Source: Streptomyces ferrugineus (GTDB lineage Bacteria; Actinomycetota; Actinomycetes; Streptomycetales; Streptomycetaceae). From it: a stretch of DNA of 64,000 nucleotides. The stretch lies in assembly GCF_015160855.1 (NCBI RefSeq), contig NZ_CP063373.1:2418001-2482000 (forward strand), read 5' to 3'. Within the stretch, counting starts at the first letter, position 1. Each line of letters starts with the position of its first letter. The translations under genes were made by a program, and so were the position numbers. Below are positions 28,315 to 31,136 of this stretch, piece by piece. The notes under the pieces are model-generated. The model did no database searches. It worked only from the letters and a program-made list of their open reading frames with translations, and was not told the origin of the DNA.

Positions 28315-28394
28315 CCGTGCCCCGGGGCTGGATAGGGTGGACCTCGTTGAGACTCACGTCCCGTAGTGCGGGACGACTGACCCTGGAGCGGCTT

Positions 28395-29459
28395 ATGAGC
28401 GCTGTGACCCCCGCTGGAGGCGACACCGCGGCGGGCCGTTCCTGGCCCCTGCTGCTGAACGGTCTGCTGGACGGCCGGGACCTGTCCGCCGACGACACCG
28501 CCTGGGCGATGGACCTGATCATGCGCGGTGAGGCGACGGACGCGCAGATCGCCGGGTTCGTGGTGGCGCTGCGGGCCAAGGGCGAGACGGTGCAGGAGAT
28601 CACCGGGCTCGTGCGGACGATGTACGAGCACGCGAACGTGATCGAGGTGCCGGGGCCGACCGTCGACATCGTCGGCACGGGCGGCGACGGTGCGAAGACC
28701 GTCAACATCTCCACCATGTCGGCCATCGTCATCGCCGGCACCGGCGCGAAGGTCGTCAAGCACGGCAACCGGGCGGCGTCCTCGGCGTCGGGCGCCTCCG
28801 ACGTGCTGGAGAAGCTCGGCGTCAATCTGGAACTGCCGGTCGGGCGGGTGGCCGAGGTCGCCGAGCAGGCCGGCATCACCTTCTGCTTCGCGGTGAAGTT
28901 CCATCCGGCGCTGCGGCATGTGGCGGCGGCGCGCGGCCAGCTGGGGATCCGGACCACCTTCAACGTGCTCGGTCCGCTGACCAACCCGGCCAAGGTCAGG
29001 GCGCAGGCGGTCGGTGTGGCGGACCCGCGCATGGCGCCGATCGTCGCGGGCGTCTTCGCCGAGCGCGGCAACTCCTCGCTGGTGTTCCGCGGCGACGACG
29101 GCCTCGACGAGCTCACCACGACGGCCACCTCCCGGGTGTGGGTCGTGCGCGACGGCAAGGTGACCGAGGAGACCTTCGACCCGTGTGACGTCGGCATCGA
29201 GCTGGTGCCCGTGGAGGCGCTGCGCGGTGCCGACGCGTCCTACAACGCCGAGGTCGCCCGGCGCCTGCTGGACGGCGAGACGGGCCCGGTGCGGGACGCC
29301 GTACTGCTGAACTCGGCGGCGGCGCTGGTGGCGCTGGAGCCGACGGACGCCGCGCTGACCGAGCAGATCCGCGTCGGCATGGCGAAGGCGGCGGAGTCGA
29401 TCGACTCGGGGGCGGCGAAGCGCACGCTGGACCGGTGGGTGGCCGCGAGCAACGCGTAG
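28395..29459 (+). CDS. trpD: anthranilate phosphoribosyltransferase TrpD
   Basis: Joins anthranilate to phosphoribosyl pyrophosphate in tryptophan synthesis; 354 residues. It shows the PRPP-binding [14 protein letters not shown] and [18 protein letters not shown] blocks. The ATG at 28395 has GGAG 7 bases upstream. A TAGGGT -10-like box at 28333-28338 and a 7-bp hairpin (28357-28375, loop TAGTG) lie in the leader. There are no Trp codons in this leader, unlike that of trpEG at the other end of the window. Confidence 0.93.
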
Positions 29460-29535: not shown

Positions 29536-29642
29536 GGTCATGAGTGACAGTCATGAGGCCCCGGCCGACTGTCCGGCAACCCTCCGTCCGTGGCGGGGTG
29601 CCCCGGGTGAGGACCAGGCCGTAGGCAGCGAGGTCTACGGCA
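29536..29642 (+). ncRNA. SAM-IV riboswitch
   Basis: Matches the actinobacterial SAM-IV aptamer for S-adenosylmethionine. It has GGTCATGAG at the 5' end, P2 arms GACAGTC and GACTGTC, the core CGGCAACCCTCC, GGGGTGCCCCGGGTGA and the closing GACC that pairs with GGTC. An extra 3' hairpin (GCCGTAG / CTACGGC, 29618-29641) is the SAM-IV hallmark that SAM-I lacks. A 10-bp palindrome AACGTACGTT (29517-29526) lies just upstream near a possible promoter. No intrinsic terminator follows, so control is more likely at translation. Confidence 0.85.
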
Positions 29643-29666
29643 AGCGCGTGACCGAGGAGTTCCCCC

Positions 29667-29687
29667 GTGAGCAAGCGAATGCGCTAG
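29667..29687 (+). CDS. six-codon upstream ORF (MSKRMR)
   Basis: GTG AGC AAG CGA ATG CGC TAG, with GAGGAG 7 bases upstream, lies between the riboswitch and the aminotransferase gene. The string GGAGTTCCCCC-GTG here (29656-29669) is repeated as GGAGTTCCCCC-ATG at the downstream gene (29743-29756). It may be a leader peptide or a decoy start; translation is not proven. Confidence 0.45.
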   Translation: MSKRMR

Positions 29688-29753
29688 GGCCGCCGAGCCC
29701 CGCCTCCGCACACCCACTCTCACTTTCTTCCTTCCTCTCACGGGAGTTCCCCC

Positions 29754-31136
29754 ATGTCTGTCTCCACCGCTGCCTCCGTCCAGGGCATTTGTGCCCCGTT
29801 GCCCGTTCTGGGCAGTGACGTCACCGTCCCGCTCGTCACCGGCGGCGAGGTCACCTACGCCGCGCTCGACTACGCCGCCAGCGCCCCCGCCCTCCAGCGC
29901 GTCTGGGACGACGTAGCCGCCTACGCGCCGTACTACGGCAGCGTCCACCGCGGCGCCGGCTACCTGTCCCAGCTCTCCACCGACCTGTTCGAGAACGCCC
30001 GCGGAACCGTCGCCGAGTTCCTGGACTGCCGGGACGGCGACCAGCTCGTCTTCACCCGGTCCACCACCGACTCGCTCAACCTGCTCGCCGCCGCCCTCCC
30101 GGCCGACTGCCAGGTCTTCGTCTTCGAGACCGAGCACCACGCCTCCCTGCTGCCGTGGCGGAACGCGCGGGTCACCTACCTCAACGCGCCCCGCACCCCC
30201 CGCCAGGCCGTGCGGACCCTGGAGCGCGCCCTCGCCGACCGCACTGCATCCATTCAGGAGGGCCACGGCCCGGCCCTGGTCTGCGTCACCGGCGCCTCCA
30301 ACGTCACCGGCGAGCTGTGGCCCGTACGGGAACTCGCGGCCGCCGCCCACGCCCACGGCGCCCGCATCGTGCTCGACGCCGCCCAGCTGGCCCCGCACCA
30401 TCCGGTGAGCGTCCGTGACCTCGACGTCGACTGGGTCGCCTTCTCCGGCCACAAGCTGTACGCCCCGTTCGGCTCCGGCGTCCTCGCCGGCCGCGCCGAC
30501 TGGCTGCGCGCGGCCGAGCCGTATCTCGCGGGCGGCGGGGCCAGCCGCAAGGTCTCGCGGCGCGAGGACGGGGGAGTGGACGTCGAGTGGCACGACAGCG
30601 CCGCCCGGCACGAGGCGGGCTCGCCGAACGTCATCGGCGCCTACTCCATCGCCTCCGCCTGCAAGGCCCTGACGGAAGCGGGCTTCGACGCCCTGGTCGC
30701 CCGTGAGGAGCACCTGATCCGGAAGGTGCGCGCAGGGCTCGCCGACGTCCCCGAGGTCCGCGTCCTCTCCCTCTTCGGCGACGAAGCCCCCCGCGTGGGC
30801 GTCATCTCCTTCGTCGTCGACGGCTGGAACAGCTCCCACTTCGCCGCCGCGCTCTCCGCCGAGTACGGCATCGGGGTGCGCGACGGGCTGTTCTGCGCCC
30901 ATCCGCTGGTCCGCACGCTGCTGGGCAGCGACCCGCAGTCCCAGGGCGAGTGCGGTGCCCCGGAGGCGGCGCCCGGCGAGAAGTCCCTCAACGCGATCCG
31001 GGTGAGCTTCGGGGCCGGTACACCGGACGAGCACGTCGAGCGGTTCGTGCACGCCGTGCGGGAGCTGGTGGCGGACGGCGCCCGCTGGAGCTACCGCACC
31101 GAGGACGGCCGGTGCGTCCCGGACACCTCCGCGTGA
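29754..31136 (+). CDS. class V aminotransferase / SufS-like cysteine desulfurase family protein
   Basis: PLP-dependent enzyme of 460 residues. The PLP Lys is at 234 (FSGHKLYAPFG). Cys381 (GLFCAHPL) sits where SufS-type enzymes hold the persulfide Cys, so sulfur transfer from cysteine or a related sulfur amino acid is plausible but not certain. The DNA has GGGAG 8 bases before the ATG. The SAM-IV riboswitch upstream links it to methionine/SAM or sulfur metabolism. Its 3' end overlaps the convergent glycerate kinase gene by 46 bases. Confidence 0.82.
   Translation: MSVSTAASVQGICAPLPVLGSDVTVPLVTGGEVTYAALDYAASAPALQRVWDDVAAYAPYYGSVHRGAGYLSQLSTDLFENARGTVAEFLDCRDGDQLVFTRSTTDSLNLLAAALPADCQVFVFETEHHASLLPWRNARVTYLNAPRTPRQAVRTLERALADRTASIQEGHGPALVCVTGASNVTGELWPVRELAAAAHAHGARIVLDAAQLAPHHPVSVRDLDVDWVAFSGHKLYAPFGSGVLAGRADWLRAAEPYLAGGGASRKVSRREDGGVDVEWHDSAARHEAGSPNVIGAYSIASACKALTEAGFDALVAREEHLIRKVRAGLADVPEVRVLSLFGDEAPRVGVISFVVDGWNSSHFAAALSAEYGIGVRDGLFCAHPLVRTLLGSDPQSQGECGAPEAAPGEKSLNAIRVSFGAGTPDEHVERFVHAVRELVADGARWSYRTEDGRCVPDTSA

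Follow-up and report, generated by a model that had tools for sequence, protein, structure and literature searches.

The leader of a class V aminotransferase gene in Streptomyces ferrugineus raises the question of what a riboswitch controls when the first start codon behind its aptamer opens an open reading frame (ORF) of only six codons, and the main gene begins further downstream from a ribosome site of its own. An earlier note on this DNA held that the SAM-IV aptamer could govern translation of this mini-ORF, which would then act on the main gene by reinitiation or as a decoy, and that ribosome site and start had been duplicated as a module. Comparison among relatives supports control of the mini-ORF by the aptamer, and it speaks against reinitiation, a pure decoy and the duplicated module.

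Results

The following features lie in the window, by which we mean the whole 64-kb stretch of DNA analysed; the aptamer, the mini-ORF and the main start stand at the coordinates given previously, as the RF00634 match and the sequence confirm.

29536..29652, + strand: SAM-IV riboswitch aptamer (RF00634, 110.9 bits, model positions 1-116 of 116)
29654..29659, + strand: GAGGAG, ribosome site of the mini-ORF, short-linker type (from the sequence)
29667..29687, + strand: six-codon mini-ORF GTG AGC AAG CGA ATG CGC TAG, MSKRMR (from conservation)
29687..29700, + strand: hairpin behind the stop, starting with the G of TAG, GGGC (29687-29690) opposite GCCC (29697-29700) (from leader comparison)
29701..29740, + strand: tract poor in G and rich in C and T, a possible Rho-binding region (from composition and low predicted structure)
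29743..29746, + strand: GGAG, ribosome site of the main gene (from the sequence)
29754..31136, + strand: class V aminotransferase or cysteine-desulfurase-like gene, 460 aa (PF00266, 7.1e-74)

The aptamer covers the full model length and scores far above the RF00634 gathering score of 38; it is the sole Rfam match at the gathering threshold within the window and the only RF00634 match in the whole 9.96 Mb genome. The main-gene product falls under the cut-off of the SufS model TIGR01979 (245.1 against 475.1 bits), and its best solved match is a cysteine desulfurase (E = 5.1e-50); judged by sequence, it is a class V aminotransferase related to the SufS cysteine desulfurases. The aptamer thus precedes a sulfur-metabolism gene, cysteine-desulfurase-like by sequence, as expected of SAM-IV. 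Upstream and on the same strand, an ORF at 28317-29459, whose translation by eye resembles anthranilate phosphoribosyltransferase (trpD), ends 76 nt before the aptamer, and a scan for sigma-70 promoters between 29400 and 29860 found none.

The main-gene ATG stands 66 nt behind the mini-ORF stop. Both starts are preceded by the same spacing, namely GGAG (29656-29659), TTCCCCC and GTG at 29667 for the mini-ORF, and GGAG (29743-29746), TTCCCCC and ATG at 29754 for the main gene, and GGAGTTCCCCC occurs exactly twice in the window. The idea that the duplicated GGAGTTCCCCC forms a functional module was rejected, because the two ribosome-site strings are identical in 0 of 79 named relatives (among the best 80 of 547).

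RF00634 was present in 287 of 295 genomes in a draw from the genus Streptomyces, in 89 of 91 in a draw from the family (Streptomyces included) and in 55 of 108 in a draw from the class. In a draw of 101 Streptomyces genomes, the exact mini-ORF pattern DTGANNMAGCGAATGCGNTAG was found in 84, once per genome and with 0 control hits, which is more than chance would give; it was found in 0 of 10 genomes lacking an RF00634 match. At all 46 of the 84 pattern places that were compared, it lies on the same strand as a listed aptamer and 14-63 nt behind it. The other 17 genomes comprise three without a SAM-IV match (G042, G049 and G078), 13 with a six-codon variant containing CGA ATG NNN TAG, and a single SAM-IV-bearing genome without the mini-ORF (G027). 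The mini-ORF or a six-codon variant therefore accompanies the aptamer in 97 of the 98 SAM-IV-bearing Streptomyces, so that the conservation which the earlier note had asked about, that of the MSKRMR frame and its ribosome site where the aptamer is, does obtain. It was likewise present at 79 of 80 named loci, the exception being L052 from S. flaveus; these are the best 80 of 547 and are skewed to close relatives, and the genus and family draws are spread, with leaders taken from among the matches listed, so that rarer leaders may be missing. On this sequence comparison, the mini-ORF behind SAM-IV is a real, genus-wide feature of Streptomyces.

Within the family, nine further genera carry the mini-ORF (g4, g6, g8, g9, g11, g13, g16, g17 and most g7 loci), and in g15 (L160) MQMMR follows SAM-IV; these assignments were made by eye from one to nine loci per genus among the matches listed. 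The main-gene start takes the place of the mini-ORF in two Streptomyces; in three related genera (g2, g10 and g14) and at three g7 loci (L134, L135 and L166) it likewise stands directly behind the aptamer. Outside the family, a short ORF with CGA-ATG occurs at 4 of 23 class loci (L200, L202, L214 and L217), which come from four other actinobacterial families (MCIRRMCCR, MSCQRMPRR, MNHHRMRR and MCRCRMTGVAGA; three with Cys codons, L217 judged by eye). By eye, different short ORFs may be present at two more class loci (L208 and L213), and at most of the remaining ones a start codon lies close behind the aptamer. As a side observation, GGGGAGCAYGTGATGGCGTGA behind the aptamer in genus g5 (L182, L189 and L192) suggests a shorter ORF, ATG GCG TGA.

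Codon usage was counted in 144 distinct six-codon leaders. The table was built by locating the aptamer with a text pattern, which succeeded for 193 of 241 locus ids and left 48 unmatched, including the duplicate L112; nine mini-ORF-bearing loci are absent from it (L039, L046, L050, L151, L152, L153, L158, L162 and L165). The start codon is GTG in 133, TTG in six and ATG in five. The residue at codon 2 is S, N, V, T, I, K or R, and codon 3 is AAG in 123 and CAG in 18 (CTG, AAC and ACG once each). The peptide of the relative L045 (S. violaceoruber) is MSQRMR. Codons 4 and 5 are CGA and ATG, and the stop is TAG, in all 144; codon 6 is CGA in 91, CGC in 25, CGT in 19, CGG in one and a non-Arg codon in eight. 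A Shine-Dalgarno (SD) tetramer precedes the frame in all 146 distinct leaders, at 8-10 nt from the start in 125. One locus (L139) has one codon fewer with the frame kept, and another (L121) ends one codon early with a TGA stop.

Sequence comparison thus finds a conserved upstream ORF with coding signs behind the aptamer, and we consider the mini-ORF very probably translated. That GTGAGCAAGCGAATGCGNTAG is instead a conserved RNA motif of the switch, open by chance, would agree with the invariant third base of CGA (144/144); against it stand the interchangeable start codons, the free wobble at codon 6, the SD in 146 of 146 leaders, the in-frame codon loss in L139 and the alternative stop in L121, and we give it only the slightest chance of being right. 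CGA accounts for 33 of 2606 Arg codons (1.3%) in 80 orthologous main genes, which end in TGA (79) or TAA (one) and never in TAG, and rare codons at the invariant places of the mini-ORF would fit slow decoding. Some nucleotide-level constraint on CGA is conceivable, and coding alone does not explain its invariant wobble base; for the stop, pairing of the G of TAG in the hairpin could by itself favour TAG. In a single pattern search of CRRMC-type sequences in the S. ferrugineus genome, the CGA-ATG pair was seen in 0 of 5 matches; with three matches in the control, this result carries no weight.

The stem starting at the G of TAG can form in 143 of the 146 leaders. It has 4-6 pairs in 141 of them, and its mean length is 4.5 (2.4 in shuffles); 22-nt segments taken at offsets of 14-18 from the start fold at about -7.7 kcal/mol on average, with 99% below -4. 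Deviant 5' arms have matching 3' arms (GAGGCC/GGCCTC, GGAGCC/GGCTCC, GGCGC/GCGCC and GGCCG/CGGCC), in a fitted comparison that is biased to pairing; when 96 representatives were aligned, pairing rose little above shuffles (89.9% versus 89.3%, shuffled maximum 91.0). In the window, the 34 nt that follow the stop adopt another fold at minimum energy (-8.2 kcal/mol). The 30 nt behind the hairpin contain 50% C, 29% T, 13% G and 8% A across the 146 leaders and have low predicted structure, and a scan for intrinsic (U-run) terminators between 29400 and 29860 found 0. Hairpin and C-rich tract together point to attenuation. The earlier note mentioned neither.

Where the mini-ORF is absent, so are the hairpin and the tract, and the ribosome site and start of the main gene stand in their place. 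At one such locus (L234) the first codons of the main gene are GTG AGC, those that open the mini-ORF in other leaders, which looks like a fusion of mini-ORF and gene through a deletion. The simplest reading of these leaders would be that the expression platform acts on whichever start site comes next. Conservation of the mini-ORF with the aptamer, together with the main start in the same position where the ORF is missing, indicates that the aptamer most likely controls mini-ORF translation; this part of the earlier interpretation is well supported by comparison, and we regard the mini-ORF as the likely target of the switch.

How the ribosome site of the mini-ORF would be masked may differ with the linker, which is long at 131 and short at 20 of 151 loci (not deduplicated), the window being of the short type. 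The hairpin GGACCCCT/AGGGGTCC of long linkers has compensatory changes, with 98.0% of cells paired (shuffled mean 96.7, maximum 97.3). As an alternative, its 5' arm is complementary to the ribosome site (CCCTCG:CGAGGG and variants), with a mean score of 16.0 versus 11.1 shuffled over the 131 long-linker loci; in the alignment this pairing was weak (87.5% versus 86.2% shuffled, with no double changes). The aptamer segment GACCAGG is complementary to CCTGGTC, and their pairing would open P1; both are nearly invariant. A best-fit listing had suggested that this helix covaries, and we rejected that candidate on the alignment (89.6% paired versus 90.5% shuffled). No masking partner for the mini-ORF ribosome site was identified in the short-linker window. 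At short-linker loci the ribosome site lies a few nucleotides behind the 3' end of the aptamer, where one strand of the PK-2 pseudoknot is located (PMC6890682); there the folded aptamer may occlude the site.

Discussion

The mini-ORF could turn a translational riboswitch into a control of the downstream message. At low SAM, the expression platform would leave the mini-ORF ribosome site free, and a ribosome translating M-x-K/Q-R-M-R would dwell at the rare CGA, at the ATG behind it and at the TAG stop. There it would cover the 5' arm of the stop-codon hairpin and the start of the C-rich tract; transcription would then continue into the cysteine-desulfurase-like gene, to be translated from its own ribosome site. 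Upon binding of SAM, the mini-ORF ribosome site would be masked and the mini-ORF silent, and the exposed hairpin and tract would lead to early termination, most likely by Rho, or to decay. We judge the chances of such a relay by attenuation to be about even. Comparison backs the aptamer, the conserved ORF, its position as likely target, the hairpin and the C-rich tract; from these we infer translation itself, the dwelling of the ribosome, masking by SAM, termination and the sign of regulation. Rho would probably be the agent of such termination, to go by the composition of the tract.

Several other roles for the mini-ORF could be envisioned. Ribosomes ending the mini-ORF might proceed to start the main gene, and termination-reinitiation is reported for the M. 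tuberculosis ppe2 upstream ORF (uORF), there with a stop and start that overlap (PMC11260477). The mini-ORF stop and the main start are separated by 57-291 nt (median 100) in 79 relatives (among the best 80 of 547), which argues against reinitiation; the hairpin also intervenes, and a separate ribosome site serves the main gene. We therefore find the proposed coupling highly unlikely. A pure decoy would leave unaccounted for the invariant CGA-ATG-NNN-TAG and a hairpin that starts in the stop codon. The same anatomy would fit a mini-ORF whose translation shields the leader from nucleases rather than from termination, and termination and rapid decay are discussed as alternatives, or in combination, for metE (PMC11260477); stabilization has no need for a hairpin placed exactly in the stop codon, however, and this role seems distinctly doubtful to us.

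It is also possible, if rather improbable, that the invariant Met codon after the rare CGA reads the charging of Met-tRNA, so that stalling over the hairpin would make the leader a dual sensor. Codon 5 is ATG in 144 of 144 leaders while codons 2, 3 and 6 vary, and CGA-ATG appears again in the SAM-IV short ORFs of four other families (L200, L202, L214 and L217); a single regulatory codon, on the other hand, differs from the runs in known attenuators. We would entertain with the same reserve the broader reading of MSKRMR as a minimal sensing or arrest ORF, in which CGA-ATG-NNN-TAG pauses the ribosome over the hairpin according to methionine supply or another metabolite. If true, the six-codon frame would add a second, ribosome-based input to a SAM riboswitch, and since four other families also show CGA-ATG in short ORFs after the aptamer (4 of 23 class loci), a sensing ORF may be a class-wide design. 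The leader departs from a classical amino-acid attenuator in having one internal Met codon in MSKRMR, joined by a second Met at codon 2 in a few variants only, rather than a run of regulatory codons, and in the absence of a U-run intrinsic terminator (0 between 29400 and 29860).

No description of the SAM-IV mini-ORF was found in searches of open papers, mostly among listed entries, in keeping with the earlier note's statement that no SAM-IV switch of such design was described; the original SAM-IV description (reportedly that of Weinberg and others, 2008) and a genome-wide study of M. tuberculosis leaders lay outside the scope of this search and may touch on it. Related designs are known in M. 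tuberculosis, and the SAM-IV mini-ORF would add a new form to the known riboswitch-controlled upstream ORFs. One of the two nearest in principle is the pe20 Mbox with uORF2/Rv1805A, where, as would be the case here, the translational platform of a riboswitch governs an upstream ORF that is conserved, and Rho-dependent termination takes part (PMC12810186). There, however, the aptamer is an Mbox, the uORF is longer with a conserved peptide, the accessible text describes no six-codon CGA-ATG-NNN-TAG ORF, and the mechanism is experimentally shown, in contrast to the inferred SAM-IV case. The M. tuberculosis B12 riboswitches with metE and ppe2 uORFs are similar in that riboswitch and uORF translation jointly set main-gene expression, and differ in the aptamer and in that, for ppe2, stop and start overlap and reinitiation is shown, against the 57-291 nt between them here (PMC11260477). 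The words SAM-IV and Streptomyces are absent from the main texts of both papers.

In S. lividans, the SLIV_26975 leader has SAM-IV before a gene called cysteine desulfurase and is transcribed; the available portion of that report names no mini-ORF, and its attenuator table has eight other leader peptides (PMC8079986). Actinobacterial cys leader ORFs resemble the present case in that they are short, precede sulfur genes and lack clear intrinsic terminators, with Rho suggested (PMC1262725). They differ in their Cys-codon runs or Cys-ending peptides and, in the accessible text, in that no riboswitch gate is mentioned (PMC1262725; NF042934); unlike them, most variants of the SAM-IV mini-ORF have no Cys.

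Our comparison suggests how a translational riboswitch may reach a distant gene by way of a six-codon relay, one that is testable in a well-studied genus, with relatives lacking it as natural controls. Moreover, some of the strongest conservation in a leader can fall on an ORF whose length is well below what ordinary gene finding detects.

Other SAM-IV aptamers of the family are followed, by eye and among the matches listed, by a longer peptide of the type RRHVDLLRVSSALC (L146, L147, L148, L150, L159, L164, L168, L170, L171, L173, L175, L177 and L181, and further L183-L187, L190, L193-L197, L237 and L241). Two such peptides were scanned with NCBIfam NF042934, 'putative leader peptide', and one passed the cut-off of 27 bits (30.5) and the other failed it (19.4); MSKRMR, with six residues, is shorter than the 20 that such a scan requires. 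A second relay design may exist in which SAM-IV precedes a Cys-type leader peptide. The family draw also contained, among the matches listed, SAM-IV aptamers arranged back to back in pairs, one on each strand with about 120-220 nt between them (G332:C169:14065-14498, G322:C1:1096541-1096906, G312:C2:180862-181262, G344:C1:3091128-3091472, G365:C1:7946477-7946880 and G296:C104:70479-70827), possibly representing divergent operons under one signal.
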